A stretch of 64,000 nucleotides of DNA from Branchiostoma lanceolatum (taxonomy: Eukaryota; Chordata; Leptocardii; Amphioxiformes; Branchiostomatidae), in assembly GCF_035083965.1 (NCBI RefSeq), contig NC_089723.1, positions 36,153,193-36,217,192 of the forward strand, given 5' to 3'. Both the position numbers and the translations under genes were made by a program. Shown here piece by piece: positions 2,812-63,642 of this stretch. The stretch's first letter is position 1, and the number at the start of each line of letters is the position of its first letter. The notes under the pieces were generated by a model. That model was given only the letters and a program-made list of their open reading frames with translations. It was not told the DNA's origin and searched no databases.

Positions 2812-4116
2812 ATGGATACGACGACGCCAGACCAATATTCTCAGGCTCGCCTACCCCAGAATAGCCATGGCCTGGAGGTACTACAGCGGTACATGAGGTG
2901 GGAGGGGGGCGACACTGTGCTGGATGTGGGGTGCGGCACGGGGGAGATGTCCCAGTACATGTCCCGACAGCCAGGTGTGACGTCTGTTGTAGGGTTCGAC
3001 TTATCAACTGATTATATCAGGTAATTCAAGTTGATATTGAATACAATTGTCACATGATATGTTAGCGCACCTTGTAGTTAACTTTTCGGCGATGTTTGAC
3101 GAATTTTGATGCAGTTATCCGGCATTGCTGACGATGCGCCGTGCAGATATGCGGAGTCACTAACAATGGAGTGTATGGGAACCGATTTGGGATTTTGGGA
3201 TTTCGTGCAATTAACATGAGTGTGCGTTAATCCGTTGTTCAAAGAAGTGGCTTCTGCTGTAGTAAAAACAATTCAAATCAGACTGAGTGTTGCTTTGATT
3301 CTATTTTCAGCATCGTCTTAAAAGAGGTCCAAAAGGGACAACAAAACAACTCATGCGCATGATAGAGATATTTGAAAGAAACTTGAATTTGGCAATGATT
3401 TAGTCCTAAGCTTCATTTGCATTACTTGATGAGTCTGAAGTAGATTTTCACATTCTTTGGAGTTGTACTTTTTGTCCATCGTTATCGCAATAACACACAA
3501 AACATATTTTCACAGCTATGCATCCCAGCGCAACTCGTCCGACAAGGTGTCATACCACGTAGCTAACGTCTCAGACCCATCAACCTTCAAGTCAGACTGG
3601 TCAGGTGCTTTCAGCAAGGTGGTCAATCTTGAAGTTCTACACTGGGTCCAAGACAAGCCTAAGGCGCTGAAAGCGATGCACTCCTGCTTAAAACCGCATG
3701 GGGAGCTGCTGATCGTCTGCCACGCTGATACTCATCGCTTTTGCAAAACGGTTTCCGACATGACCCTGCACCCTCGCTGGAAGGCTTACTTAAAGAGTTT
3801 CGACCCCAAACTCTACCCATGGTCTTCCGATGATTTTTACCAAGGTCACAGCCAACTTCTGGAGGAATGCGGCTTTGAGGTTCTCGCGTGTGGGCAAATC
3901 GAGCATCGTCCACAGTCATTTGAGTCAAAAGGGCAGCTGCGAGCCTTTATGCGTGTTTCCTTCGCACAACATGGACACATTCCTCAAGAATTGCACGAAG
4001 AATTCTTCGATAGCCTTGAGAAGGTAGCCATGGAGCGACAGCTCTTGTCGTTCTCTGGGGATGGATGCCCCCAAGTAGATGATGACAAGCTTGTTGTACA
4101 TGCACGCAAGGTGTAA
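2812..4116 (+). CDS. class I SAM-dependent methyltransferase, JHAMT-like
   Basis: Two exons, 2812-3020 and 3516-4116, join in phase 2 (AG|C, Ser) across a 495-bp GT-AG intron to give 269 aa. The start ATG has G at -3 and +4. Residues 36-47 (VLDVGCGTGEMS) are the glycine-rich motif I that binds S-adenosylmethionine, and VVGFDLS after strand 2 supplies the acidic residue that contacts the ribose. LEVLHWV and LKPHGELLIVCHAD match the later motifs of this fold. Length and the C-terminal half resemble the animal family annotated as juvenile hormone acid O-methyltransferase-like, which is expanded in invertebrates. The substrate in a chordate is unknown. There is no signal peptide or membrane segment, so it is probably cytosolic. 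No AATAAA lies close behind the stop. The methyltransferase fold is certain; the subfamily is a fair guess. Confidence 0.9.
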
Positions 4117-9500: not shown

Positions 9501-12500
9501 TATGATGGAGACCATTGTGAAAATGGTAAGTACTCCTATCATAACGGTTCAATGATTGTTTAAAAGATTTGTCATAGACTTTACTACAAAATATACGACT
9601 ATGTCCTAACGACGTTTTAGTGTCATTTAAGCTTTCACTTGAATTTTCTCGTATTGGCGGATTACAACAGCTTTGTCATCGACGAAAATAACATTTTGAT
9701 CATTTTGGGAGATGCATAGATATTTACACGATTTTCCTGGAGACACATTAACTGCCATCCCAATATGTCAATACAGACATCAACGACTGTGCTTCTGTTA
9801 CCTGTCAAAATGGCGGCACTTGCCTTGACGGCGTCGACAGCTACACCTGTGATTGTGTTGCTGGCTATGATGGAGACCATTGTGAAAATGGTAAGTACTC
9901 CTATCATAACAATTCAGTCATTGTTTGAAAGGATTCTCATAGACTTCACTACAAAATACACGACTATGTCCTAACGACGTTTTAGTGTCATCTAATCTTT
10001 CACTAGAATTTTCTCATATTAGCACATTACAACAGCTTTGTTTTTATTGTTTATTGTCTATTGTTTATTTGCATGTGTACAATATAAAACAAAGATAAAT
10101 AGAGCAAAGAATACATGCAGGGGAGGCTAGAAGCCTATAAGGCTTTTCGGTTGCCTCCCCTAAACTACACAAATGGAATTTTTACAAAATTATATATTAT
10201 CAAAACTAAGAAAAATTAACGAAAGAAGAAATTGGAATTGTAACATAAATCCTAATGAAACAAATTAAAATAATAGAAATTACAAAGTGAATTTTGAGTT
10301 GTAAACATAATAAGTATTATAATGAATAACAATCTATAAAGAAATAAGTCAAAATTATACAAAAATAACAATCATATGAAACATTCTGTCATCAGATACC
10401 AAAGGAAAAGTGGAAAACAAGGAAAACAAACAAATCAGGAGAAAGTAATACTAGGATGTTCTATGATATCTATCTTTAAAAGTTTTTTGAAACTGGGCAA
10501 GGACGAACAGGACTGTAGAATTTGGCTGAGTTTATTCCATACGGCGGGGCCTCTAAACATTATTGTATGTTGTTTTTGACTAGTTTTTGTCATGATTGGT
10601 CTTAAAAGATTATGTTGTCTCGTATAGTGGTGATGGATATCTGAGTTGAAATTTAAAAGACCTTTGTATTGTTCAGGTAGGGAAGAGCTATTATGGACAA
10701 TTTTATGGACAAATAAGGCAATTTGAAATGTATTGATTTCAAATACAGTCATAACAATTAAATCACTAAACAGAGCTGCTGTGTGTGCTGTGAATAAAGC
10801 ATTGGCTGCTATTCGTACAAAGCGCTTTTGAAGGAGGTAAACAGGATTGATGGATGTTGTGTACGTACTACCCCAAATTATGTTGCAATAAGTTAGATAA
10901 GGGTAAATCAAACTGTAATAAAGAACCATGAATGTGTTTCGTGACAGCAAAGATTTGACTTTTCTTATGATGCCTATGTTTTTGGAAATTCTTTTGCAAA
11001 CAAAATCAATTTGGTTCTTCCATGAAATTTTCTCGTCTATAATTATGCCCAAAAAACGGGTGTGACTTACTTGATTGATAGCATTGTCATTAATATAGAT
11101 CCTAGCCTTTTCTTTATCGTATTTCTCGTTCCTTCCTACAAAGAACAAAAAAAAATGTTGTCGACGAAAATACAATTTTGATCGTTTTTTGAGATGCATT
11201 GTATTTTATAAGATTTTCATGGAGACACATTAACTACCATCCCAATATGTCAATACAGACATCGACGACTGTGCTTCTGTGACCTGTCAAAATGGCGGCA
11301 CTTGCGTTGACGGCGTCGACAGCTACGCATGTGATTGTGCTCCTGGCTATGATGGAGACCATTGTGAAAATGGTAAGTAATCCTAATATAACGGTAAAGT
11401 CGTTTTCTATTTAAGATTTCCCATAGCCTTTTCTACAAAATACACGTCTATTTCCTAGCTACGCTCTACTGTCATTCACCTAAGAACAGGAATTTTCTCG
11501 CATCAGTGCCAGTGGATCCCAAAACCTTTTCTTATCGACGACAAAACAATTTCGATCGTATTGGGAGATGCATTAAAGTTTACATGATTTTCCTGGAGAC
11601 ACATTAACTGCCATCGCAATATGTCAATACAGACATTGACGACTGTACATCTGTGACCTGTCAAAATGGCGGCACTTGCGTTGACGGCGTCGACAGCTAC
11701 GCCTGTGATTGTGTTGCTGGCTATGATGGAGACCATTGTGAAAATGGTAGGTACTCCTATCATAACGGTATTTTTTCCGATTTCTAAGAGCCCTCTCTAC
11801 AAAACACACGACTATGTCCTAGTTACGTTTTACGGTCATTCAGTTATTAGCTGCAAAGCTCCCGTATCAGTGGATCACAACAATCTTCTTAACGACGAAA
11901 ATACAATTTCTAAAATTTTGGGAGATGCATAGCATTTGTACACGATTTTTCTGGAGGCACATTCACTGCTATACCAATAATATGTCAATACAGACATCGA
12001 CGACTGTGCATCTGTGACCTGTCAAAATGGCGGCACTTGCGTTGACGGCGTCGATAGCTACGCCTGTGATTGTGTTGCTGGCTATGATGGAGACCATTGT
12101 GAAAATGGTAGGTACTCCTATCATAACGGTATTTTTTCCGATTTCTAAGAGCCCTCTCGACAAAACACACGACTATGTCCTAGTTACGTTTGTACGGTCA
12201 TTCAGTTATTAGCTGCAAAGCTCTCTTATCAGTGGATCACAACAATCTTCTTAACGACGAAAATGCAATCTCTAAAATTTTGGGAGGTGCATAGCATTTG
12301 TACACGATTTTTCTGGAGGCACATTCACTGCTATACCAATATGTCAATACAGACATCGACGACTGTGCTTCTGTGACCTGTCAAAATGGCGGCACTTGCG
12401 TTGATGGTGTTGACAGCTACGTCTGTGATTGTGTTGCTGGCTATGATGGAGACCATTGTGAAAATGGTAGGTACTCCTATCATAGCGGTATTTTGTTTTC

Positions 12501-43205: not shown

Positions 43206-46200
43206 TCATGTCTTGGCTGGCTGAAGATGCTTCTTGACTCTTTCCAACACCTGGTAAAAGTTCTGCTTGAAGAGCTTGTCCGTACTCAGGTCCACCGAGC
43301 TCAACTTAGCAAGGATCTTCCTCACAGCAGTAGGGGCTCCCTCTGGCGGCCAGGGCAGGAAGCGCAGCATTAGTGGAATGATGGGTTTGTACAGTGTTTC
43401 TGCCAACGTGAGGTCCTTGCTGCAGTTGTCTGATTGGATGTACTTGGGGGTGATGCAGCAGATGACCACGGAACAGGCGCGCATGTTCCGTTGGATCTGG
43501 CTGGTGATTGGTTCGCCGGACGTCTCTGGGCGGGACATCAGGGCGGCGTTGCGACTGCTCATGCTGCTGTGACCTCGCGTCACCGGGCTGTGGACAAAAA
43601 GAAAATAATGTAGAACTTACTCATCAATCAATCAACCAATCAATCAACCAACAAGGCAATAAATCAATCAATTTATCAATCAACCAAACAACGGTAGGCA
43701 TTAAGTGCTGATGCATGGTGACTGCACCCATCTCTCTCCAAAATGTTCTATTTCAGAACACTGCACAGGATAATTTTGACTTTTTCCGTCAACCCACACA
43801 CAAAATCATGATCATTTATAACACATGAGGTGCCATTTTAAAAGAAATAAAAACGCTTTCCAGTGATATATACATAGATACAGTAATACAATGTACTTGA
43901 CTGATCAGATTTAACTTTCCAAACTTTTTGTGTATTTCATCTGGACATGGTGGAACATGGTAATGTATCATGGACTTACATGTACCCTGTCCCATGGGTC
44001 AACATATGATGATGATCATGTATTTTACATGTACCTACAGCTAGAAGCAACCACACACCTGATATCAGCCCAGCAGGTGACCCCACTAGACTCCAGCATG
44101 TTGCGAATGTCGTCCACCCGGGCCTGCGTGTCCCACTGGTAGCTGATGAACACCTTGGGTTCCAGGTACTCTGTCAGAGGCCACATGATCTGACCTGCAG
44201 GTCAAAGATGCAGGTTAAAGGTTACAGCAGCTGCAACAATTCTTATGTACATGTACATAAAAATCTGATAGCACAAAAAAGCACATAGTTATAACAGAAT
44301 TCTGGTTGCAACAATTCTGTAGTACAGTAGTATGCATTGACTGTAAACGATCAGGAAATTGCGGGGGAAAAATTTCAAGATTTGTATGAAAAGCAGCAGT
44401 AGCTAGAACACTGTGTTGATAATCACAAGTTGTACATGTATACTGTCTTGCTGCAATATAACAGCTACAACACAATAGGTGAGAAAATTACACCTTAGTA
44501 TACATGAAGCTCAACAGTTTGTGGTTTTCACACCGAGTGACCTCTCCACTGCAAATTCAATTGACACCACAAATGTGCTTTTCCAAAGTATTACTAACTG
44601 TACTAACAGCACTACGGAATGTTTTCATCTGCAAATTTAAAACACTGCAAAAACGTCCTTTCCCTACCTACCGGGAAACAAGTTTACAGTGTCATGGCTT
44701 ACCTGATTGTGGAGCGGCCAGGACTTGTAGTGGCTTGAGTCCCTCGGCCATGCGGTTCAGGTACGCCTGCTCCAGAACGATTCCCGAGACCTTTCTGAGC
44801 GGGCGCACCTGGTGTTCTAGGACGTCCATGCTGTCTGCGTACATCTTTGTCTCAAAGTCGATGGCTGGGTTCTCACCTGAACAGGTGTGTTGGAAGGAAA
44901 TGGGAACATCTTGATATGTATAATAAGGACTGTTGGAAATTGAAATAAGACTCAGGTTTCTGTGGCCAATTAAAAATTCTTTTCTTCATTCAGATCATGA
45001 ATTGTCACTTATTGGACTGGAATGGAATGTAACAAAGTCTCAAAGTTCTGAGAGAAATTCATCTAATATGGTTTGACCTTTAATGAAGACCAATATTCCA
45101 CATTTTCGCCACACTAAACACACTGGTCACAACTAAACATGTTCAAAGTCAAAAACTTAAGGCACATTTAGCAAACATTGAATACATTCGCGTTTTAGTT
45201 GAAGTAAAAATAAAGGAACAGAATATGTTAAAACGCAATTGAAGGTTTGTCTAGCTGTATCAGAAATATGAATTTGCCTCTGAACAGTTCTTAAATGGAT
45301 AAAATAGGGTTCAGGTTTGTACAAGTTCAATATTATTATTATCATAATAGTCATTTTAGTTTACAGGTTTCAGCTTGACACTGTCTCAGGAGCAAGGAAG
45401 AAGTAGTGGACCTGGTACTCTGGATTCCCAAGCATGGGAAAAGGATGCCAGGAAGACCAGCAGCAACCTTTATAGACACACTCAAAAAAGACACTGGACT
45501 TGAAGTGGATATATATATAGTATGCTTCAGGCGATGAAGGACCGAAAGACTTGGGCTGGCATCTCGACTCGTGACTGGAAGGTCTCGACATAAGCAAGTA
45601 AGTAAGTTCAGCTTGAGTCTTGAATTTCGAAATGAAATCTGGGACTTACCTAGAATGGCCTTCATGGCAGGTCTGAGCTTGCACCACATGTTTTTGAACA
45701 GAGCCGTGACGATTGTCCTGTTCAGCCACTCTGCAAAGACGACCTCGTTGAACACGAAAGGGGACGTGGCGGCCGCTTCTGTCAGGAGTACCAGGATGTT
45801 CTTACAGCCGGCGATCCGCGGAGCGTTTATCTGGAGGAACTCTTCCTTGGACTGGCCGAGCTTGTCATGGGTGTCAACCTGTGAACGGTGGATTTTGCAG
45901 GATTTCAGATTTCTATTTTTTGATTTTATTAGAATTGCAATAGTGCAGCATTTGGGCAAGACAGTGGACTAGCCCCCTGCTATAGTGATTGCACAACGTT
46001 GTGTGGCCCAAGGGCTTCAAAACAGAGATGGGTGTTGCCATAAGCGTACATGGTTTAGGACACCCGGACTTTAACTTTGACTTAAGTTTAAATTGCATTT
46101 TGACATAAATATGCAGAGTGCCAAAAAGGAGGTAGCACACGTTGGGGGCCTGACCCACATTGTAATTCAATCAGGGTACAGAGGTGACGTAATTACGTCA

Positions 46201-49200
46201 CAAATCCAACTGTAAGGTGTTTAACTAAAGCTCAGACTCTTTGTGATTTTACATTCTTTGTGGGAACGTCAGCGCTGACATCCCAACACAACACAAATGC
46301 CAAGTTGCCATGTAGTTGAACAACCAAACAAGCCGGGAACAATTGTACACGTCAATAGATGGACAACTTAAGCAGTAACAGTGTTTGTACTGCCATGAAT
46401 GAAGAACCTTCCAAGTATTGACTACTTGGGTACTTCAGGCGTCTATAGAACGTCAGGCCTTTGAATTCTATAGTGGACCTCAGTCTGACTTGCGTCACAT
46501 GAAAACAGAATGTAATTTTCATAATAGGTCAATCTAATTCAATTGGTTCCATTTTGATTGATTGATTGTTGACAGGATCACTATAGACTTAGATATCAAA
46601 TCTAACAAACTTGCAACTTGTATTCAGAATCATGTCCCTTTTCGCCTTTTACTAAAACCAGTGACACCTTTTGAAAAGTTTAACTTCATTGAATCGTATA
46701 TGAAGGACTCCCAACTTTTTGCTCAGTTCCAAGGGAATTCCTTATGTACACATGTAATAAAAACCTTGCAACTGTACACCTGTGCTTAAAAAGAATTCTC
46801 TATCCCCACTTTGAAACAACATTCACCCATTTATACACAACGTATCATTTATTTTCTCCCTTGACATTTCTTTGTGGTAGGGTCAAGAGGTGAAACAAAT
46901 GCCTCTGACTTGACCATGGCGAAAATGAGCGGTCCATAATAGGCATTGAGTCGGAAAACAAAAACGACACAGTATCGGGTCAACAGATACCGCCGCGTCT
47001 TGGCGACCGCGACACAAAAACGTTGACGTGACTTTTGGGCCGTCGGTAAAGGTAAATGTTTACGTGTAAATATGACCCAGTAAAAACACCTGTACTAAAA
47101 CACACTCTTCCCAACACTGTGAACTCTCACATCCATTGGGTCTAAAACTTAAGTAAAAGAAGACGACAGCTAACAGATGGACAACTCCGATTTTCCTCAA
47201 AATGATGGCTGCAATATACCATTTGTTGGCAATGTACAATGTTTACCTAACTACACAACTCAATCAAAACAGCATTACATTCTCCTGATCCCCCCTCCAA
47301 TAGTGACGACTGTTTGTCTGAACGATGATGTGCGATGTTTGCGTGGTGAATCAGTTGCCCAGACTTTCTGAGTGCGCGATAATCTCCAAGTTAGGCTCTT
47401 GGCCATGAATGTCGTGTGCGCTTGAAAAGAAAAGTCAGTAATTGCATGGACAGAACTGCTTCAAAAATACTTTTTTTTAAATTTTGGTTCCAAACCCAAG
47501 GGAGGAAATGCTATGACCATAAAAAACACATTGCGGAAGTATAAGCGCATCAGGAAAACCTTCCAGTTCCACCAACCACTTTTGCTACATGCAAATTCAG
47601 TAGTAAAACCGTTGAAACTCAGACTGAGGACGTAGCATGACGTTTTTCTTTAGAATTCAGTGCATTATGGGGCTTCACCGGGTCACCCCTACATGTACGT
47701 ACTCTTCTCAATATGTCTGTTGGGTTCTTTTACGTGCCGATGTTTGACGTAAATTCAGTAAAGATACTTGAATTATTTGGATGTCATAAAATGTAATATG
47801 TACATCTAACTTAGACAGTACTTATATATAGAATATCATATATATATTCAGGACAACAGTATCAACAGCACAGCTTGAACAAACTGTCTGCAACCTCCCA
47901 TCTTCCATCCCTAGTGTGTTGTCCATGGTGCATGTTACTTCTACACTGTTGTGTCAACTTTGTAGCTTTTTGAGGCCTACATGCCCGGGCAGCAAGTCAG
48001 GTCAGCAGGGGTCTGACTGTTACAGGGACCTCTCTAGATCTGTGCCTGACTCTTAATCTTTTGTAAGAAGTTGTCATCTTGGGTTTACATCTGACTGATG
48101 GGCTAAAAGGGATTAGGCTACTTGTAGCACAATGTACTGAGTAAATCAACTGTATCACTTAGTCTGTAAAGAAAAGGCAGGGGCAATTTGACGAAAATTG
48201 TATAGAAACTATCCTAGCTCTCAGTTTCTTGATTATAATGGCGAATTTCGACATTCTTGATGAGAATTCACAATCATGAATATGATTTTGGACTACAGAA
48301 CACTCACATCGGGCTATAGCTTGTGACAGAAAACAGTCCATGTCTTTGTAGTACAGTAATACATATTTTCAGGGGGAGGGTACGATGAGTCCCAAGCCCC
48401 GACTGAGACTTTGCAAAGCTCAGGCACAATATCGGATCAGTGCAGATCTTAGGCCTGCCACAAGGTTCAGACCATCTCACATAACGTCATAAGGTTGCCA
48501 TGTACGCTGTCCCGACCAACGCTAACTCACGTCAATAACAACATCGAGGAAACGTGACACCGCAGACAAACAGGCACACAAAGATGCGGGGGATCAAAAC
48601 AGGAGGATCCATTGCCCCAGCAGCTGGTCTGAATGAAGGGAGTTAAACTTGTTATGACGCACCATTGTCCCCTGAGGGCTGAGGTAATGTATGTTGAATA
48701 GGATGATCAAGTTGCTTTAAGAGGTGTAACAAGATTTAGCGACTGGAGGTCCCTTTTTTTTCTTTCATCCTGTTGAGGAGGTTTAGATGATCAAGTTGCT
48801 CAAAAAGCCAAAACAAGATTAAGAGACTTTAAGGTCTTTTTTTCTTTGATTCAGTTGAGAAGGTTTGGATGATCAAGTTGCTCTAAGTCTATTTAGAGCA
48901 GCAAGATACTAGCAACAAGATTTGGTGACTCAAATATTTTGTCTCTCATTCTGAATGAGGTTAAGGTGCAAAATCACAACCTTCCAAGCAGAGGTTGTAT
49001 AGAAAGACTGGGACTTTGTAATTTGCTCAATTGGATGGGCCAACTGTCAGAAAACGGGTCAAATCAGATGGTTAAAATCTTACCATCTAATCTTTGCTTG
49101 GAGAGTAAAAAATCAATTCTGTTTCAAAGTGTGTCATTTTCTTTTCATGTTTCTTTGATATGGTTTTCACAAGGACTTCAACTCTATGTCCTTGACTCTG

Positions 49201-52200
49201 ACATGGGCACACAAGAGAGCGTGAGCACCTCTCTTTTGTATGAGCTCTAAAAGCATGGCAAACAAAACAAGGCAAACCAGCAGCCAAACATACACACCCC
49301 TCAGGCCTTGATTTTATATCCATACATGACACCAAGGAGAACTTGAAAGTCAGAGAATGTCACGTTTGACAGTCTGAAAGACAGGTGTGTTTGCGTGTAA
49401 ACTACGCTGTAAAAGGAACAGTGACTTCTTTCTTTGGTAACGACATACTTTAGGTAAACAGCATTCCTTCAGAAAAGTTCAAAGTCTAGGAAATCTCATT
49501 GTCTATTGTACAACTTGCTGTAACATTGCCTCATATATATTTGTATGACTTTTAACGAAAGGACTTTTATTTGACAAGCTCTTTGGTTAAGGTCGATGTA
49601 AATGTAACAAATAGAAAATGGCACTGGCTCAGCTATTGTTGGACAGCTACTTAACTACATTTCAACACATCCGTTACCTTACCTTAGCCAAATAACATTG
49701 ATTTTGTTTTCATGTTTTGTCAGAAAAAAATTATTTCCTGCTTTCTAATCATTACCAACCTGGTAATTAGTATAATTTGGAAAAAAGTTCACAACAAAAT
49801 GGAAAAAAAACTGTTGATGGCAACTAAAGCAAAAATATATACAGTATATAATAACTGCACTTTCTGTGTCACAGCTTTGAAAGTCTTTGATTCAGAGCTG
49901 AATAAAAATGATAAAAAACTGTCAAAATCACCAGGTATTTACAATGTGTGTTAAGTAAGATCGATATGCTCTAATTTTTGGTATGATTAGTCTTGCTGCA
50001 CAGAAAACCAAGGAAAAGATTTTAGGTATTTTTCTGCTCAATAAAAAAGTCACTTGCAACAAAAAAGCCCATCTATGATTGAACATGATTGTGCCCAACT
50101 GTAAATGTAGCAGGTTTACAGTAGTCCTCTTAGTTTTACATAGGACATTGGAACAAAAGAATATTTTCAGGCTGCGTATTATATAGACTGTATACAATGT
50201 CGTCTGGAAAGGAAAATTCCATCCATTCACACAACTATGGTCAACAAATATCTCCTGATTCTCTCTAACCACCGGAGCAAGAGACACAAACAAAGCAGCC
50301 AGCCACCAGGAAACGTTACAAGGTCTCTTGTTGAGGGAAACTGGCTCTCTGTTCAGGCATACGACACGGTTCAGTGCATCTAAAAGGGTCACATTTCAAC
50401 TGAAGCAGGTTGGACTTGAACTAGGTAAACTTGGGCTTGACTTGTTGCTTCTAAGCATTCTTATAGCCAGGCTATAAGAGGGAGGGCAACATTGTACCAG
50501 TAGCAAACTTTTCCTGTCACTAGACTTGGGCTTGAACTACGTAGACTTGGGCTTGACTTGTTGCTTCTAAGCATTCTTATAGCCAGGCTATAAAAGGGAG
50601 GGCAACATTGTACCAGTAGCAAACTTTTCCTGTCCCTAACATCCTACAAATGAGTTACATGCACACAGAAAGTTCCAAAGTTTCTCAGTTGAAAAGTTTT
50701 TCACAACATGTGCACAGTCACAAACTCCTACCCTGAGTTATTCTTTCTAGTCCATATTTCATTCTCAGTCTCAGAACAAAAATAAATCCCTTTAAAGGGC
50801 CTGACAGGATAATTAATGACCTCCCCCCAGAGGGATCAAGGGTTTAATCCCCCTGACACACTCCCCTCGTTAGTAATGCTCGTTAAGTCAAATTGTCACC
50901 TAGTTACCACCTCAAACAAACAGTCAGATCCCCTGGAAGATAAACAAAGAGCCATTTTGTCTTGTGGGGGGAAAAGATTGAAAACTCTTAGTGAAAGTCC
51001 CTTTAGCCCAAAAGTGTTGGGTAAATTTGCAGGCATGTTAGAGGGGCATGTATCAGTAGGCCCAATATACTTGTAAACATTAAAAATCTTAATATCCAAT
51101 CTACACTATCTTTAACCAAACAATGCATGTACCATACTACCGAAATGTACCACAAAAATGGACTTTGCCGATTTAAGGATCAGTTGTTGAACAAAAATCT
51201 TTGTAAAAGAAGCTATTCATATTCGTACAGATTTGCGTACAGTATAGCTTTTAAATAGGTCAACTTCTAATTTTTGGATGTTAAGGGAGGAAAATGTTTG
51301 ATTTTTTTTGTACTGTTGCATTGCTTTCATGGGCCAGGGATAATCATTGAGACATCTGAATACATCTCTACATAGTTGGACTTCTATGACATGATTATAA
51401 GTTAGTGAAACAACAATATTTTTTTTTTTATTCAAGAAACAAAAAACAAAACATTTAGACAAACAATCTTACTTGAATGTTCTTCTTCAGCAGATCTGCC
51501 TTCATGTTCTGCGCTAGTCTGACGTCCGCTGGGTCGTACACCAGGTACACCGTGTCCACCCGCGGCCGCTTCAATCGCACCCGGAGATGCCAACCGTCCC
51601 TCATCTTCTGCTCGTTGTCCAGAATCTGCACCATCTCCGAGAGAATCTTCTTCCGTACGATACGACTCTCAATGCTGAGGTACGATACCATGTCCTGTTC
51701 CGTGAGCGCCATCAGGAGGAAACCGTCGATCCCGTTCTCCGCGAAGGCTTGGCAGAAAAATTCCCGAACCTTCATACCGGCGAGCCACTCCTGTACGTCG
51801 TTGACCGTCCATTGGCAGAGCTTCGTTTTCTTGTACTGACCCGTGAATTCCGTCTCGGCCACCAACGGAGGCAACGCCGGGACCATGGCGGTCGATAGTT
51901 TTTCCAAGTAGATGCTCAGGGAGCCGACCACCATGGAGCTTTTTTCAGCGAGGCTACTCTTTGCGATTCTCCCTGACGTTAAGTCTACAATGCCGTCCAG
52001 GAAGGGGGCGTACTGAGGCGGTATGTCTGTGGGACTGTACAAAACGAGGAAGAGTTGTGGCGGTTTCGATAACGATATCGTTCTTTCCAGCAGCACCTTG
52101 CCTTCAAACAGGGACATGGTGGACTGGAAGTAGCTGTCTGAGAGTATGAGGATTGCAGCGCGGCATTTTTCCACCGCCTCTAGACGCTGCGTGAACCATG

Positions 52201-52696
52201 TCGGGGCGTCAATGTTCTTCTCATCCTTGTCAAACCAGATGTCTTCTGCTAGATTATTTTCCTTCAGCTGTCGGACGGTTTCCACCACAAACTTCTTCTC
52301 CAGATACGCGGCGTCTGGAGAGTAGGAGAAAAAAATGCCTTTCTTTCCGGGCTTGCGTTTCTTGTGTGACGTCGGCGGTGGACCAAGCGTCTTCTCATTC
52401 TTTATGGCGCTCTTGGTGCTTTCGTGGAATCCTGAGTCAGTCCCCCCTTGAGGTTCGGCTACTTTGAGTTTCTCAACATCTTCACCGGGCTGGGAGATCT
52501 CATTCTCCTGCATGTCTTTTTTCTTGGACTTGATTTCTACGCTGATGAAGGAATCTTCACGAGATACGGGAAGGGCTTCCGCTTCTTCTTTTGTGAGTTG
52601 CACGTTTTCGAGTTGTTGTTGTGGTATGTCATGGTTGTGCCAGGCAACAGGATCTGCCGCCGTCTCGTCACCGCTCCCGTGCCCACTTTCCGCCAT
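43206..52696 (-). CDS. TIR-SAM-TIR-TIR protein
   Basis: Five minus-strand exons (51473-52696, 45650-45878, 44703-44876, 44059-44194, 43206-43587) join in phases 0, 1, 1, 2 and sum to 2145 nt, 714 aa. After an acidic, Lys-rich N-terminus, residues 120-265 form a TIR fold (IFFSYSPDAAYLEKK, IWFDKDEKN, RAAILILSDSYFQS). Residues 293-360 are a SAM domain (WTVNDVQEWL, GIDGFLLMALTEQDM). Residues 380-485 form a second TIR-like domain (VYLVYDPAD, CKNILVLLTEAA, EWLNRTIVTAL) and 555-690 a third (VFISYQWDTQARV, VTCWADI, CSVVICCITPKYIQS, KPIIPLMLRF). TIR/SAM proteins act as oligomeric signalling scaffolds or, like SARM1, as NAD hydrolases. At the position of the SARM1 catalytic Glu, domains 2 and 3 appear to have Thr and Asp, so those two may be non-catalytic. 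No signal peptide: cytosolic. Start ATG has A at -3 and G at +4. The 5.6-kb first intron is repeat-rich. Confidence 0.9.
45430..45606 (+). mobile_element. LINE 3' remnant antisense in TIR/SAM intron 2
   Basis: The plus strand reads HGKRMPGRPAATFIDTLKKD, then after a frame break LQAMKDRKTWAGISTRDWKV and a stop. This is the C-terminus typical of LINE ORF2 proteins. An (AAGT)n tail follows at 45594-45606, 44 bp from the exon 2 splice donor. Inactive fragment. Confidence 0.65.
47660..47765 (+). repeat. dispersed repeat fragment
   Basis: GGGGCTTCACCGGGTCACCCCTAC and GGGTTCTTTTACGTGCCGATG belong to the family seen in reverse at 41138-41285. Intronic, no coding content. Confidence 0.35.
48702..48905. 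repeat. three degenerate tandem units of about 83 bp
   Basis: GATGATCAAGTTGCT starts at about 48701, 48786 and 48869; each is followed by AACAAGATT...GACT and a T-rich tract. The array lies in intron 1 of the TIR/SAM gene. Confidence 0.6.
48984..49101. repeat. short inverted-repeat element (CCAAGCAGAGGTT)
   Basis: CCAAGCAGAGGTT and AATCTTTGCTTGG are inverted ends of a 118-bp element, the same family as 42895-43010. Confidence 0.5.
50410..50638. repeat. 116-bp tandem duplication
   Basis: CTTGGGCTTGACTTGTTGCT through GTAGCAAACTTTTCCTGTC occurs twice with a 116-bp offset and only a few differences. Intron 1 of the TIR/SAM gene. Confidence 0.8.
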
Positions 52697-55379: not shown

Positions 55380-58300
55380 GTAAATAGGACCGCACCAACT
55401 CAATAGGGGGCGTCCGTAGATATAATTCTACTCTTACATCAAGTGTGCTGTGAACAGATTCTTACAAAATCACCAAAAATAGCATATTTGATGTTGTTGT
55501 AATGATATATCAGATTGAATGTGATATTTGTGTGCTACATTGATGTTTTATTTAGCTCACAGGCACGGTGAATTCACTGAACGTAATGGACTCTCCCAGA
55601 CGTAATCAAAGACTGGGGTTTCTGACCCAGAAAAGAAGCCTCAACACTTCGAAGTTTCCGCAAGTTGGAGGAAAAACTTCAGTGTCTAAGATAGCTGGAT
55701 GAGATAGAGATGCTTAAGTTGTCCATGGAGAGACTTAAATATATGATGTTGTGGAGAATTCTCCGGAGGGAGTCTAGAGAAGAGCATATTCATGATATTG
55801 GTTGATGGTTTTAGATTTTGAACTTGTGCGAAAACGTCGTGATAAAATCTTGAAGACAATGAGTTTAGGGCTTAAAGTTTTGCCGAGTAAGTAAACTAAG
55901 TGTTGATGTATAAAGTACCCAAATCTCGGCAAACTTGAAGGAACCCCGCGGACTTGACGTTTAGTTAACTGGTCACTGACAGTAACTGGAATAGTTAATT
56001 ACATATCCCAGCATGCATCATTTTCAACATGGCTGACCCAGGGTTTGGGTTCTAAACCCGCAGGTTTGGGGACCGAGTTTTGATAGTTTTACCAGTTTTG
56101 TACCAAATTTCAACGATTTCACCCAATTGGTCTTCAAGGGGGAGACACGTAGGTACGTTTTGATCATGTTTCATCATCTGTAACTGTTTTTTCCGGGAGA
56201 TATGAGCGCGGAAACAGACAAAGAACCCCGGTTGTTTTTCAACCAGCGCCCCGTTTATCGTGTTATTATGCTAATTTCATTAATTTATAAGCCATCCCAG
56301 CGGCCCCGTGACTCCAACCTATTAACGTATTTGTACATGTTGGTCACGTCTGAAGCCAAGTTGATGGCAGGGAGATATTGCGAAGCAGAAAAAGCGCCTT
56401 CGTTAGGTAACTTTAGGAGACGGAACGTTGGAAATTGTTATGTCGAGCGTGGCGGGAAATTTGACTGAAGAAACGGCTACCGCAGATTACATTATCCAAC
56501 TATTCCTTTGTAAAAATTTAGAAAGAATATAAAATAAGTTTTTCATGTTAAGTGCTACAAGAATCGGAATGCCACCTGCTTATTCCGGCTAACTAAAATG
56601 ATATTGTTTAACCCACACCAGTAGTAACGTTACATGTGTGGGGGAAAAAAAGAAGATATTTAAGCTTTCCGGGCAGTTGCAAATGGGTGAATATCTAGCC
56701 ATGATATTGACATAATGTTGTCAAATGAACATAGGCAGTTGGGCCTAGCCGATGAGGCTGATTCGGGCTTTGTCAAATCACTGTCTGATGACAAAAGTAA
56801 CAATCTACTCTTTGGATTTGATTTAACCATATAAACCATGCATTGCTAATGTTATGACTTTCTTTCTTTGTTCATTTACATTTGTATACATGTAGGTTTC
56901 AAAGTTTCTGTTGGTTTGTTCCAGGTGTTGCATGATGGGAGAGCCGCGGTACACGATCGAGCAGATCGACCTTCTCCAGCGACTGCGGCGGACGGGACTC
57001 AGCAAGGACGAGATCCTGCAGGCGCTGGAGACCATGGAGAGGCTGGACCGCGAACACGGGAGCATCGTGGCACCGCCCGTACATGCGTGTTCTAACAGGT
57101 GTGTATTCAATCTGTCATCAGTTCAAAACTGCCCAAAAAATGGTGAAGATTAAGAGACCACGGAGAAGATGAATTGCAAAGACAGAAGTACATGTACATG
57201 TATTGTTGTGGCGCCAGGAACATACATGTACATGTACTAACAGACAGGTATATATGGCATCTCTTACCATCCTACCAACAGGTGCTGTAATTCTTGATTT
57301 TGCTGTCATGGTTTTCTCGGTCATTTCTTAACAGTGGATGGGATTTATAATGGTAATTCATAATCAACATCATGCCTCATCCTTCCCTACAACCCACTGT
57401 AATCACTGTATATATGGCATCCCTTACCATCCTAGCATCTACTGTTCAAAGCCTTGTTTCCAAGTTAACTCAGTAGATGGATTGAATGCAAAGCCAATAA
57501 GTATTGTTTTTGGTTTGTTTGTTTGTTTGTTTGCTTGTTTTGGTGTGTGTTCGCACTTATCTGAGTGTCAGGTTGAGGTGGCCTGGGTTAAAAAAATGTC
57601 ATTTATGCAGTTGGTCATGGCTCCACTCACACAGTTAAGTCAGGTATCTATATCTAGTTCTTGAAGTAAATATATTAACTAAAGATGAAGTTAAAATGTA
57701 CGTATTTTCAGGACCATGCGATGGAACCTGAAGACTGAGGGCGAGATTGTTCCAGCCGCCAGCCCTCCCGTCTCCAGTCCACAGGGGGCACTAGCAGCAA
57801 ACGGAACAGCCAGCCCCATGGACCAGAGCAGGCCACACAAGGACTGCGTGTTGTCGGAGGAACAGATTCAGACTGAAGTGGAAATCATGCTCAAGTAAGA
57901 ACAGTGTTTGGAAGAGTTGTTGTTCACCTTGTGGTGCCAAGTTGCACATGGATCAGCAAGTTTTCTTCCTGTTTCTGAAGCAGGGAATGTTTTTACACTA
58001 CAGGGAGGGGTTGCTAGACTTTCCCCATGTGCTTTAGGCACCTCCTTGAACGTGGGACCCCCATTTTAGTCAATTTTTTTTTCCGTCATGATATGTCTTG
58101 ATTCAATCTAATATCACAAATGATAAAGTTAGAATAACCTTTTACTTGTTTCCTCAGTAAAAATGTGGACTCTGTGAAGGAAGAACTGCGGTTATTTCTG
58201 TCGGAGCGTCGAATCTCACAGGGCCTGATCAGCAGGTATTTTGTTTATTTATCTATCTATTTATCTCTATTAAGACTAACCACATTTGTGAAATGACTGA

Positions 58301-61300
58301 TATAACAGGAGACTATCACCTTTTAAGATGTAAACCCACAAACAAGTGTGGTGGGTTTGTAATCATGCTCAAAGTGTGGCTTTCCCCAAATGTGAATTCG
58401 AGCTAAAGCCGTGCCATCCGAGAGGACATTCAGTAACTGGAGCTACATGATGATGATGTACATGTATGTACTCAATTTCACTCCAGTTAGTGAAGAAATA
58501 AATGTAGGCCTAAAGTGTCTTTCCGAAGGCACAAGTTTAACATTAGAGCCTGGCAGGATTCGAACCAAGAACCTTCAGATTCTACATATAATTCAACAGC
58601 CCTAACCACCAGTTAGACTACCTTGCCACCATATAGGTGGAAAGTGGCTTTCCCATTCAATTTCCTATTGGGACCTACCAGGGTTCGAACCCAGTACCTT
58701 TAGATTCTAAGTCAACAGCCCTAACCACAAGACCACCTTGGGACCACAGGTACACGGGGATCAGCCAGTCGTACCTGTCCCAGTTCCTGACCCAGGGGCT
58801 GGACATGAGCATCATCAAGAAACGCACCCTCTTCACCTGGTACATCAGGGAAAAGTTCTCCAACTCACCTGGTAAGAAATGCACCCTCTTCACCTGGTAC
58901 ATCCGGGAGAAGTTCTCCAACTCACCTGGTAAGATGGCTTGTAACACCTGGTGAACAGAAACTGTAGACAAGTAAACTTTCAGTCCTTCATTAAGTATGT
59001 TTATTTCTTGCAACCAGGTGAGGGGAGCTGGAAAAGCATTGAGGAAAATGAGACACAATAAGTACTTGATATACTTCTTGATATACATGTGCCATCTTTA
59101 TTCTCAAGTATTCTAAATGATGAAAAAAAAACACCTGGTTAAGATCCTTGTGGACGTTTCAAGTGACTGCCATCACTTTTCCTTATCACTAGTAGAACAA
59201 ACTGGCAGAACAAGTCAATACTAGAGCATGAAATGTAACTGGAAAATATACATGTAACATTGTCGTCTATTCAAGATTGTAAGTGAAAGACAACATGCCA
59301 TCTAATAATATTGTCCATCTGGCAGTGTCGGCATTAGACCTGACGTCAGCCGTGCCCAAGGCCGTGCGGGTTGCGGAGCACGTGGATGACGACCATGACT
59401 GGACGCCTCATCTTCAGTTCAGGAGCAACGTACACAGAAGGGGTCATAGGTGAGGATGCCATGGAGTCTATTGATTGATAAGGAAGAAAAATGAGGGGAT
59501 GTCACCTGTTCCTGTTATTTAGAGAAATTAAAAAATGAAAGACTATGTGTATGTAATACTATGTGTGAGGTTAAACCCTGTCACACATAACTCACCATGA
59601 CCTCCCGACCTTCTCCAGACCATGGCAGGAGGAGGTTTGATACCATCCCATGATTCCTCAATACACATCCAGTAATACACACCCACAGATGGCTGACTGT
59701 GGGCAAGAAGCATATAGACTTGTCATGTTGCCTTTGATATTGCAGCAACCGGTACAAGTTGAGCATAAGATTTTCTTCTCTTGAACTGTCAAAAGACTTA
59801 AGTAGTCTATGAGACTGTCTGACCTTTGTAATTTGTGCACAACTTTCTAAATTGTGTCACAAACTCCTACGGACCATTGTACAAATATTCACCACAAATT
59901 CTGTGTCCAAACTTGACCAAATTACAGTGTTTTTCTGAAAATACTGTTGATTGATGATATCATACTACTTGTGCATCAGAAAAACCAAAATGCACCAAAA
60001 AGCACTATTGGGAAAGAACAGAAAATTATGTTTGTCTACAATTATTACAAAAACAATATCAAATATGATTTTCTGTACTTTCCCATGGGTGCTTTTTGGT
60101 GCATTTTGGTTTTTCTGATGCACAAGCAGTATAGTATCATCAATCAACAGTGTTTTCAGTTTTCAGAAAAACACTGCAGTTTGGTCAAGTTTGAACACAG
60201 AATTTGTGGTGTATATTTGTACAATGGTCTGCAAGTGTTTGTGACACAATTTAGAAAGTTGTGCACAAATTACAAAGGTCAGACAGTCTCATAGACTACT
60301 TAAGTCTTTTGACAGTTCAAGAGAAGAAAATCTAATGCTCAAATTGTACCGGTTGCTGCAATATCAAAAGCAACATGAAAAGTCTATATGCTTCTTGCTC
60401 ACAGTCAGCCATCTGTGGGTGTGTATTACTGGATGTGTATTGAGGGTTCATGGGATGGTATCATTTCCCCCCCTGAGACCATGGTTAGGAGTTTCAACTT
60501 TTTCAACTTAGACTACCCCAGATAACCCCGCGAGGGGCAAAGTAGGGGGGGGGGGGAGGAGGTCCCAGGCTAAGGCGGGCAGGCCTCCAGCCTGGCGCGG
60601 AAAGACTCAACGGTGGGAGCCGTAACAACTGCGCCAGGCAGGGCGTTCCACTCCGGTATGGTGCGGGAAAGTATGAATATTTGTAGGAGTCTGTTCGGGC
60701 GTAAAGTGGTTGAAATTTGAGAGTTAGTCATGAACAAGGTCATCTGTGGCTTGGAGTTACTTAGAGTCAGTGAAGTTGCCTAATGACCATTTATAGCAGC
60801 CGACTATAAATTTGAATGTCGGGAAAATCATTTTATGTTTGGATGCCATCATCGGAGTGAAGAGGAGCTAGAATAGAGTCGATTCCAGGCTACTCCCAAC
60901 CCAGCACTGACCTTAGTTTGGAAGTGGTCGGGAACAAAGTTGTGGGAAAGGTCTGAATGTGTGACGGGCTAATGTTATAGGCCGGGGACAAAACTATTCT
61001 TATAGTAGATGGAATTAAAGTTGTGTCTTGTGTCCCCAGGTTCAACTGGCCCGAGGCCTGCATCACCATCATGGAGAAATACTTTGAAGAGAACCAGTAC
61101 CCAGACGAGAAGAAACGAGAGGAGATCACCAACGCCTGCAACAGTGTTATACAGAAACCAGGTACAGATATACATGTAGAAGCCTCAATGTATTGTATTG
61201 TATTGTATTGTATAATTAATTGTATTTTTGCACAGCTTAAAATCACAATTTCTAGAAATATTAATACATGTAGGACGTGCTGGGATAACAGAGACCGATA

Positions 61301-63642
61301 TGGTCTATACATGGTCTCCCCATGTCTTATTTACCAAAATTTAACGAGCTACTAGTAATAAATACTGCAACTTAATTTATTTATGTATTTATTGTTTGCT
61401 TCAGGCTAAAAGCCCAATACACACATACACACATCTAAAAAAAAAAAAACGATAATACCTACAGCACAATAACTGTTTAAAAAAACAGTATGAGGTGACC
61501 TCTCACGGCCTGCGTACAAGGTGGCAATATTGATGCCATAAACTTAAGTGCATTATCTATTGTTTAAAAATAATGAACAACCTTCTTTCCCTGCCAGGAG
61601 TGGAGCTGCCTGCCCAGATGTTGGTGAACTCGGCCCGAGTCTACAACTGGTTCGCCAACCGACGGAAGGACGTGAAGAGACGGCAGTCAGCAGGTTTGAC
61701 AAGTTTTGGGGTTAAAAGTAAATCTCTTTTTTTACTTTGACTAACATTAGTTATAGCTGCTGTACATACATACATGTTCGTGAAGAAAATGTGATTGACT
61801 GCCCTGCAGCCGACTGATGGTGATGATGAGTACATCTGTTTTTTTGTGCAGTCAATTCTGAAGTATTTAACTTTGTTTTCTTCTTTGTTACAGTGCACAA
61901 CACTCTGTCTCCGGTGCCAAGCAGTCAGTCCACCCCCCACCACCGAGTAGAGGATAGGGGCAACCAAAATACAGACCACCACAGTGGAAATATGCTACAG
62001 GAACAAGGTTGATATTTTATATACATGATTTACTTTTTCACTTGAGTTTCAGCAATCTCAACTTTAGAAGAAGACAGTGATGATGGATTGTTCCTTGTCT
62101 TATACTTATAGTACTCACTGTCATGAAATATAAATCAACAGTTTTTCAGAAAGCAACATGTACATGTAGATATGCAGGAGGTAACTTTTCCCTTGCTGTC
62201 TAGCAAAGTAGCCAATAAAAAATTTGTCCAGAAGAAAGGAAGGTGAAATGTAAAAAGATAAGACATCACACATGAAAAGGAAATGTTCAATTGAGTTGCA
62301 ATGATTTAAAAAATAGGGTATGTATTCACTCACTCACTCACTATCCGGTTTAACGTCTTCTTGTCCCCATCATCTGGGGGTTTGACGTGCTTGCATGCTG
62401 ATGGGGGAGCTTGGTGGCAGCTCGCCAGGTGCCTCTGTCCTGTGGATCTGCATCGTGTAGGTTGAGGTGGTGGAGGTCCTCCTTGATCTTGTCAATCCAC
62501 TTCCTCCTTGGTCGTCCTCGTGGATTTCGGCCCTCCACAGTCATGCCAATGATTCTCTTGGGCCACCTCTCCCTGTCCATCCTTTCAAGGTGCCCATACC
62601 AGCGTAGACGTTTGGTTCTCATCACGTCCTGCACGCTGTATTGAGGCTAATTTTTGGTGTCAAGCTAAAGCCACTGTCAGACACAGCTTGCCATGGCCTC
62701 CAGATCTTCTCCAGACCATGGTTCGGAGTTAGTCATGAGCAAGGTCATCTGTGGTTGGGAGTTGGTCTGGTCAGATAACCTGCTAGTTTTTAAAAGTTGA
62801 CAGTGAACTATGAATTTGAAGAAAAAAAGAGAAAAAAGGTGGGAGAGTCATATTTTGCCAGGATGCGATCAGAGGAGCAAACTGGAGCTAGAATAGGATG
62901 GATTCCAGGATACTCCCAACCCAGCACCGACCTTTGTTTCGGAGTGGTCAGGAGCAAAGTCATGGGAAAGTTCTGAATGTGTGATAGGGGCTGAACCTTA
63001 AGCCCCGGTTACACATAGTCGAACATGGTTGGGAGTGATTCAGAAGCTAGATCGGCTGGTGTTCTGCTGCGCCAGCCAAATGTTTAGAAATTTTCAAAAC
63101 ATTTGGCTGTGATTGGAGGTCTGGAGTGGGTTGGCCAGTAGTGGTCAGGTTGTGTTTGGGAGTCAAATTTGACTAAAATTGGTCGGACTGCTGCCGACCC
63201 TCTGCGAATCTTTGTTGGCTAGTAGTCAGGGCTGTCTCCAGCTTTCAATTTTTTTCGGCCGACTCATTGTTTGGGAGCCAATTTTCCTTGTTAAATTAGT
63301 CATATTAAGCTTCAAGATTTTCATCAATTTCATGTCATAAAGGTCCAATTTTAGGATGGCCAAGTTAAATTTCCGTCCCGGGACTGAGGGGCGGGTCATA
63401 GAGACAGCCCTGCTAGTAGTTGAGGGGCAAGTTCGGCTAAATTGTATGTCTAATCGGGGGTTTACATTCACGTTTCAGGAGAGTCGGTGCACAAAGAGTC
63501 ACACCAGGATCCTGTCCAGGTTGCCGTGGAGATGGCAGCTGTCAATCATGCCATCATGGCCCTCGTCAATCAGCACAGCGATGACATGGACCAGGGGGAG
63601 GAGCAAGAGGAGGAGGAGGGGGAGGATGGGGAGTACAGCTAA
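55360..63642 (+). CDS. HMBOX1: HMBOX1-like homeobox transcription factor
   Basis: Nine certain exons (56925-57098, 57712-57894, 58158-58235, 58750-58871, 59326-59449, 61040-61161, 61598-61693, 61894-62007, 63479-63642) plus a candidate first coding exon 55360-55379 give 1197 nt, 398 aa; from the ATG at 56932 it would be 389 aa. The N-terminal EPRYTIEQIDLLQRLRRTGL matches the HNF1-type dimerisation-like segment of HMBOX1. VDSVKEELRLFLSERRISQ with GISQSYLSQFLTQG forms the POU-like domain. FNWPEACITIMEKYFEENQY and VYNWFANRRKDVKRR form the atypical homeodomain, and DPVQVAVEMAAVNHAIMAL is the conserved C-terminal block. HMBOX1 (HOT1) is a nuclear DNA-binding protein reported to bind telomeric repeats and to regulate transcription. 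The tail is Glu-rich. Introns carry foldbacks, SINEs and a LINE fragment. Confidence 0.95.
58530..58745 (-). repeat. two tandem tRNA-like SINE copies
   Basis: On the minus strand GGTGGTCTTGTGGTTAGGGC...GGTTCGAACCCTGG (58660-58745) and GGTGGTTAGGGCTGTTGAAT...GGTTCGAATCCTGCC (58530-58625) both carry a good B box and a recognisable tRNA-like 5' part. The end of the second copy reaches to within about five bases of the HMBOX exon 4 acceptor. Confidence 0.6.
58817..58930 (+). repeat. 57-bp tandem duplication at the end of HMBOX exon 4
   Basis: AAGAAACGCACCCTCTTCAC...TCACCTGGT (58817-58873) is followed directly by a second copy (58874-58930). Each copy ends in the same CACCTG|GT donor (58872 and 58929). 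Using the second donor would add 19 in-frame residues (KKCTLFTWYIREKFSNSPG). Differences are few: CGC to TGC (Arg to Cys) and synonymous AGG/CGG and GAA/GAG. Confidence 0.9.
59633..60476. mobile_element. long foldback element in an HMBOX intron
   Basis: Arms of nearly 400 bp (about 59633-60024 and 60066-60476) are reverse complements with few mismatches, around a loop of about 40 bases (TTTGTCTACAATTATTAC...). Examples: GATACCATCCCATGA on the left and TCATGGGATGGTATC on the right; GACTTAAGTAGTCTATGAGA and its complement. No coding content; transcribed as part of the intron it would form a very long hairpin. Confidence 0.85.
60490..60990 (+). repeat. dispersed MITE-like family, forward copy
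   Basis: GAGTTAGTCATGAACAAGGTC, GGAGCTAGAATAGAGTCGAT, ATTCCAGGCTACTCCCAACC and GTGGTCGGGAACAAAG are shared with 62655-62998 and, in reverse, with 17731-17994. This copy also carries an extra G-rich segment at 60540-60650. Confidence 0.6.
62327..62634 (-). mobile_element. LINE 3' end (ORF2 C-terminus)
   Basis: On the minus strand the frame reads RLRWYGHLERMDRERWPKRI and GRPRRKWIDKIKEDLHHLNL, the widespread C-terminus of LINE ORF2 proteins. A stop and a (TGAG)n tail follow at 62327-62342. Truncated, inside the last HMBOX intron, antisense. Confidence 0.75.
62655..62998 (+). repeat. dispersed MITE-like family, forward copy
   Basis: Third copy of the family at 17731-17994 and 60490-60990; ends CACTGTCAGACACAGCTTGCC and GAATGTGTGATAGGGGC. 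Lies in the last HMBOX intron. Confidence 0.6.

Follow-up and report, generated by a model that had tools for sequence, protein, structure and literature searches.

A predicted amphioxus protein with one SAM and three TIR domains: architecture, the catalytic-glutamate column and likeness to SARM1 and MyD88

In the well-known TIR proteins of animals there is a single TIR domain, which serves as a docking module or, in SARM1, as an NAD+-cleaving enzyme (NADase). A gene on the minus strand of a 64,000-nucleotide stretch of the Branchiostoma lanceolatum genome (contig NC_089723.1, positions 36,153,193 to 36,217,192; the whole of this stretch is referred to here as the window), extending from position 52696 to 43206 of the window, raises the question of what role can be assigned to a chain in which three TIR domains are arranged around a single SAM domain, and whether such a chain is specifically related to SARM1 or to MyD88. 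The results presented below indicate that the predicted protein is not an orthologue of either of them, and that it is best placed next to the TIR-SAM hybrids of invertebrates, as a relative with several TIR domains. The function which we favour, with modest confidence, is that of a cytosolic scaffold which would be oligomerised through its SAM domain and would bring multiple TIR domains into complexes of the TLR/MyD88 type.

A single spliced chain and its four domains

The predicted gene consists of five exons, whose four introns all have GT-AG ends and whose reading frame is kept across every join, and splicing of these exons gives a coding sequence of 2145 nt that encodes 714 amino acids (aa) and contains a lone terminal stop codon. 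The original prediction of one TIR-SAM-TIR-TIR chain of this length is borne out by profile searches, as three TIR domains are detected both by Pfam and by our own TIR hidden Markov model (HMM), and a single SAM domain by Pfam, in the order TIR1-SAM-TIR2-TIR3, within this single spliced frame. Exons 1-3 each contribute a part of TIR2, and exons 4 and 5 together encode TIR3 (Table 1). The Pfam profile TIR_2 scores 99.3 bits against the whole chain (cut-off 28), in three stretches which are listed at the loose limit of E 10, and the Pfam profile TIR scores 30.5 bits (cut-off 21.3). When single domains are cut out, TIR_2 gives 61.8 bits for TIR3 (E 1.1e-16) and 30.1 bits for TIR1, both above the cut-off. 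The SAM domain is matched by SAM_2 at aa 296-354 (E 1.3e-8, 35.3 bits; cut-off 20.5) and by SAM_1 with 28.9 bits (cut-off 23).

Our own HMM was based on 34 bacterial TIR rows, 32 of them distinct (L002/L004 and L003/L005 are doubled), and it is not independent of Pfam TIR_2, as the loci were picked with the TIR_2 model. It detects three domains, at aa 121-205, 383-469 and 557-662, the second of which is aligned as 87 columns without a gap. In 1000 shuffles per domain, none reached the real scores of 29.3, 21.6 and 55.5 bits for TIR1, TIR2 and TIR3, the shuffled maxima being 6.6, 7.6 and 9.8 bits, respectively. Comparisons by hhalign with ten bacterial TIRs gave probabilities of 94% for TIR1, 92% for TIR2 and 98% for TIR3. 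Further, no family of leucine-rich repeats (LRRs) was found in the Pfam scan of the 714 aa, and the mean hydropathy over 19 residues reaches at most 1.33, so that the transmembrane segment that characterises a Toll or TLR is not indicated. Among other collections, the PADLOC models for bSEFIR, ThsB and other TIR-type proteins match TIR3 (best E 1.2e-6) and none of them matches TIR2, and NCBIfam gives a match to FxsC, at 28.6 bits and thus far below its cut-off of 130. A tblastn search of plasmids with TIR3 gave two bacterial places (E 0.4-0.5), a match of 22 residues (L001) in the scan of genome contigs was taken as due to chance, and the patterns for TIR rows in viral contigs gave 0, 1 and 1 loci, one of them with a TIR, which are too few to be used.

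The composition of the exons is likewise that of translated sequence. Their G+C content is 0.53-0.58 versus 0.36-0.39 in the introns, and the G+C values at codon positions 1, 2 and 3 (0.55, 0.38 and 0.70) show the pattern of a translated frame. On these sequence characteristics, the locus is judged to be an intact protein-coding gene. They also bear on the possibility that the gene is a paralogue from an expanded family which has little or no function of its own, and whose frame is intact for now in a TIR-rich lineage. TIR2, when cut out alone, is a degenerate match to the TIR profile, scoring 20.4 bits and thus under the 28-bit cut-off of Pfam, and amphioxus is credited with more than 40 TIR adaptors in the part of a review covered here (PMC6043800; this and the other papers cited below are represented by portions of their text). 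However, the presence of 714 codons without an in-frame stop, and the strong codon-position bias with a high G+C content at third positions (GC3) in all five exons, speak against this possibility, which we regard as distinctly unlikely.

It is also necessary to consider whether two adjacent genes have been joined in error, for example a gene comprising exons 1-3 (TIR1-SAM-TIR2) and a separate one comprising exons 4-5 (TIR3). Intron 1 is long (5594 bp), the support for the join between exons 3 and 4 comes from splice sites and frame, with no domain running across it, and an in-frame ATG (M546) is present in exon 4, eleven residues upstream of TIR3. The other joins speak against such an arrangement. 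The HMM match to TIR2 passes from exon 1 into exon 2 without a gap, its TIR_2 match reaches aa 495, i.e. ten residues into exon 3, TIR3 continues from exon 4 into exon 5, and all joins are in frame with GT-AG ends. Because domains run across them, the joins 1-2 and 4-5 are well supported and the join 2-3 more weakly so. The division that had been named as refuting the original prediction, viz. exon 1 and exons 2-5 belonging to separate genes, is thus disfavoured, as TIR2 begins in exon 1, and a misjoined model in general appears very unlikely to us. From the ATG in exon 4, a separate transcript making TIR3 alone could nevertheless be produced.

When the TIR profile was compared with the 2189 reading frames of at least 20 aa in the window, E-values of 0.05 or lower were obtained only for exons 1, 2, 4 and 5, and the frames of exons 4 and 5 score 26.1 and 29.6 bits individually with the TIR HMM. 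No frame within intron 1 matched the TIR profile at E <= 0.05. Seven other frames in the window reached only E 6-10, as chance predicts, and further TIR genes in the window were therefore rejected. Intron 1 also contains, at 50410-50638, a stretch of 113 nt that is present twice, 116 bases apart, with 96% identity.

The catalytic-glutamate column

If the three domains are to be compared with the NADase of SARM1, then the position in each of them that corresponds to its catalytic glutamate (E642) has to be correctly located. According to the original prediction, TIR1 has a Glu nearby and both TIR2 and TIR3 lack it. The assignments for TIR1 (E198) and TIR3 (D646) hold, and that for TIR2 results from an error in register, as E453 fills this column. 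Three MAFFT modes, run together with 25 bacterial rows, place E642 of SARM1, E198, E453, D646 and the Gln of MyD88 in one shared column, which contains Glu in 22 of the 25 bacterial rows, and T463 lies 16-19 columns further. The bacterial bridge in these runs took 25 of the 34 rows (rows of fewer than 76 residues were omitted) and included the same two doublets. Across all 34 rows of the HMM alignment this column contains E in 24, a gap in 5, G in 4 and T in 1, the doubled rows all having E. The HMM and hhalign also align E198, E453 and D646 with the bacterial Glu; E642 is not positioned by the HMM alone, whose local match stops short of this residue in the SARM1 fragment.

A different pairing, in which WLNRTIVTAL of TIR2 is set against WVHKEIVTAL of SARM1 and T463 takes the place of the Glu, is the one adopted in the original prediction and is also given by a low-scoring phmmer stretch, by pairwise Smith-Waterman alignment and by three MAFFT runs with five sequences. 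However, it will be incorrect to interpret this pairing as showing that TIR2 has lost the residue, as the SARM1 fragment stops at IVTAL without strand betaE, the segment EWLNRTIVTAL of TIR2 runs into this very strand, and no other Glu-bearing TIR was included in the runs concerned. The T463 register was therefore discounted, and the MAFFT alignments bridged by bacterial sequences, the HMM and hhalign favour E453. The hmmscan span of TIR2, which is nearly ungapped (query 17-129, profile 1-111), is consistent with the E453 register. This case illustrates a trap, in which a WxxxE/IVTAL look-alike misplaces the catalytic Glu.

The column is thus occupied by Glu in TIR1 and TIR2 and by Asp in TIR3, and the Glu-less TIR3 has the best profile score of the three. 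The suggestion of one possibly active TIR accompanied by two pseudo-TIRs does not agree with this E/E/D distribution, and the supposedly active TIR1 is closest to MyD88. In the part of a 2020 survey covered here, the same Glu is reported for >70% of TIRs as a whole, for >90% of the TLR1/2/6/10 subgroup and for <10% of MyD88s; how often it occurs does not parallel the activities reported, and SARM1's is the only metazoan TIR with known NADase activity (PMC7075850). To this, a 2026 preprint adds human TEP1, which has a TIR-like DUF4062 domain (PMC13174449). Given how common this Glu is among TIRs, and the lack of a parallel with known activity, its retention constitutes weak evidence for catalysis.

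These observations are pertinent to the possibility that the protein is an enzyme similar to SARM1, in which the SAM domain would cluster TIR1 and TIR2, a composite site containing E198 and/or E453 would cleave NAD+, and TIR3 would act as a non-catalytic regulator. The finding that, with bacterial TIRs included, each of the three MAFFT modes aligns E198 and E453 with E642, and that HMM and hhalign align them with the bacterial Glu, is in accordance with this possibility, as are the SARM1-like character of the SAM domain, the succession of SAM and TIR2, which matches the order in SARM1, and the statement, in the covered portion of the preprint, that TIR NADases require oligomerisation (PMC13174449). 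In view of the limited weight that the Glu itself carries, we consider such an enzyme unlikely. In the scaffold that we favour, NADase activity, if any, would be secondary, since Glu is confined to TIR1 and TIR2, with Asp in its place in TIR3, and since the BB-loop motif of the SARM1 type is absent. The two functions could also be combined in a single-chain signalosome, where the SAM domains would form a ring or filament, TIR1 would receive a Toll/MyD88 signal, TIR2 (E453) beside TIR1 (E198) would make a composite NAD+-cleaving site, and TIR3 (Asp) would cap or gate it. If true, a single polypeptide would unite TIR functions of the receptor type with those of the enzyme type, and we hold this to be highly improbable.

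Likeness to SARM1 and MyD88 and the proposed scaffold

The relationship to SARM1 is seen most clearly in the SAM domain, for which SARM1 is the closest among the solved chains (E 3.4e-7, with the next match outside SARM1/TIR-1 at E 0.025). Further, SARM1 also has a SAM domain that is followed, after a short linker, by a TIR domain, an order repeated in the SAM-TIR2 part of the new protein, and the Glu column of SARM1 is kept in TIR1 and TIR2. However, SARM1/TIR-1 is a NADase of the type ARM-SAM-SAM-TIR, whereas the new protein has TIR domains on either side of the SAM, and Pfam detects in it a single SAM stretch versus the two tandem SAMs of SARM1. No family of ARM repeats was found in the Pfam scan of the 714 aa, a further upstream exon being possible. 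In SARM1 the Glu (E642) is in the C-terminal TIR, whereas the C-terminal TIR3 has D646. The BB-loop motif of SARM1 is defined as E(R/K)LEAG in the covered part of the survey (PMC7075850); the SARM1 sequence EKLEAG aligns with DKLGQS in TIR2, which differs from this motif, and TIR3 has a long insertion at this place. Relative to the TIR profile this insertion comprises 19 residues, is rich in Ser and Arg (about aa 587-605; 43536-43587, minus strand) and starts at the exon 4/5 join, at the position of the BB loop in other TIRs.

MyD88, in turn, is the nearest relative of TIR1, but it is without the SAM and the two additional TIRs of the new protein, and no death domain was found in the Pfam scan at E <= 10, a search in which the HMMER filters discard most weak matches. 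Because the defining features of both SARM1 and MyD88 were looked for and are absent, the protein should not be interpreted as an orthologue of either of them.

From the architecture, the nearest relatives and the Glu column described above, we infer how such a chain might oligomerise, dock and affect signalling. The SARM1-like SAM would drive self-assembly and thus cluster the chain, and to this extent the earlier suggestion of a self-associating signalling protein is supported, by analogy with SARM1. TIR1, being closest to MyD88, would dock into TIR complexes of the TLR/MyD88 type, TIR2 and TIR3 would add further TIR-TIR contacts, and the many TIR surfaces per oligomer would then act as a scaffold or as a decoy that tunes Toll-type signalling.

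Several observations weigh against this proposal. In place of Box 2 of MyD88 (RDVLPG, the RDxxPG motif of MyD88/TLR), TIR1 has DEKNID, which does not agree with the motif, and the Glu column of MyD88 contains Gln versus E198 in TIR1. The Glu residues in TIR1 and TIR2 may leave room for an enzymatic role, and TIR3 shows weak matches, below the cut-off, to the enzyme-type families ThsB_TIR (E 0.0013) and DUF4062 (E 0.0038). The low score of TIR2 noted earlier also belongs here, as does the result that no TIR was matched when TIR2 alone and TIR3 alone were compared with the PDB by phmmer. Lastly, AlphaFold predictions made without an alignment gave unusable models, with a mean predicted local distance difference test (pLDDT) score of 33.1 for exon 1 and 40.7 for TIR1. 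In these low-confidence models strands and helices alternate in the manner of a TIR. A Foldseek search with the TIR1 model gave nothing at E <= 0.001, and its ranking placed the TIR of MyD88 first (weakly), lysine decarboxylase second and unrelated folds elsewhere in the top ten.

Some of the individual features of this chain have precedents. The covered part of a 2008 amphioxus paper lists TIR-SAM among hybrid genes, with a cDNA for the model Brafl1_131196 (PMC2575513). This protein likewise has TIR and SAM in one chain, and the comparison with it is by text description only, which reads "TIR-SAM" without the number or order of the TIRs. The mollusc Toll-2 proteins resemble the new protein in having more than one TIR per chain, but they are LRR receptors with two TIRs, and a SAM is not mentioned in the portion of that paper covered (PMC4929906). 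In the amoeba TirE, tandem diverged TIRs were overlooked by earlier Pfam models; this protein is amoebal and contains RCC1 repeats, and the portion of its description covered again does not mention a SAM (PMC13142454). A full-text literature search for 'TIR-SAM-TIR' gave no match, and the order TIR-SAM-TIR-TIR was not found in the literature searched, an absence that is weak as few subscription papers were covered. Thus, TIR-SAM hybrids in amphioxus and multi-TIR chains are already known, and TIR-SAM-TIR-TIR is an unusual shuffled variant. The presence in one chain of a MyD88-like TIR, a SARM1-like SAM, a weak TIR with Glu and a conserved TIR without it provides a natural test of docking versus catalysis, and it bears on the way in which domain shuffling gives rise to short-cuts in the Toll signalling of invertebrates.

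Coordinates and neighbouring genes

Table 1. Exons, domains and Glu-column codons of the TIR-SAM-TIR-TIR gene (positions in the window).
Feature	Position	Strand	Description
Exon 1	51473..52696	-	1224 nt, aa 1-408; donor CAA|GTAAGA; GC3 0.66; N-terminal stretch without domain match, TIR1, SAM, first part of TIR2
First in-frame ATG	52696	-	In exon 1
Exon 2	45650..45878	-	229 nt, aa 409-484; TIR2 core; GT-AG; GC3 0.75
Exon 3	44703..44876	-	174 nt, aa 485-542; TIR2 end and linker; GT-AG; GC3 0.69
Exon 4	44059..44194	-	136 nt, aa 543-587; TIR3 start (EPKVFISYQWD); GT-AG; GC3 0.80
Exon 5	43206..43587	-	382 nt including stop, aa 588-714; remainder of TIR3; GC3 0.74
TIR1	51911..52342	-	aa 119-262; MyD88-like
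SAM	51620..51814	-	aa 295-359; closest in PDB is SARM1 SAM1
TIR2, first segment	51473..51550	-	aa 383-408, in exon 1; HMM match continues across exon 1/2 join
TIR3, first segment	44059..44153	-	aa 557-587; Pfam and TIR HMM
TIR3, second segment	43257..43587	-	To about aa 698; long insertion before helix alphaB
E198 codon, TIR1	52103..52105	-	Catalytic-Glu column; in FEGK
E453 codon, TIR2	45744..45746	-	Catalytic-Glu column; in SPFVFNE
D646 codon, TIR3	43413..43415	-	Asp in catalytic-Glu column; in NCSKD
T463 codon, TIR2	45714..45716	-	Start of strand betaE

Elsewhere in the window, a relative of HMBOX1 (homeobox-containing 1) is found on the plus strand at 56896-63639, with an HNF-1_N domain in 56896-57150 (E 1e-11). 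The start of its HMBOX1-like homeodomain, at 60981-61352, matches the HMBOX1 structures 2cuf and 4j19 (E 2e-17 and 3.2e-17, respectively), and the match to the end of the homeodomain, at 61534-61737, has E 0.034 and is below the cut-off. The extent of this gene to 63639 was judged by eye and is presumptive. The presence of this HMBOX1-like neighbour, together with the intron structure, is indicative of an animal genome. On the same strand, ten frames between 9034 and 13538, each with a nearly identical EGF repeat, constitute an EGF gene of repeated exons; their starts are some 314-394 bases apart, with one gap of about 1480, and Pfam EGF was found in all three of the ten that were scanned. A 256-aa frame on the minus strand (10438-11205), without a Pfam match, resembles by eye the C-terminal part of the reverse transcriptase of a non-LTR (long terminal repeat) retrotransposon, and an exon-like frame at 3439-4113 (plus strand) contains a methyltransferase domain (Methyltransf_11, E 6e-8). 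Between the TIR-SAM gene and the HMBOX1-like gene, the segment 55201-55350 is rich in G+C (0.58) and is perhaps a promoter or an exon.

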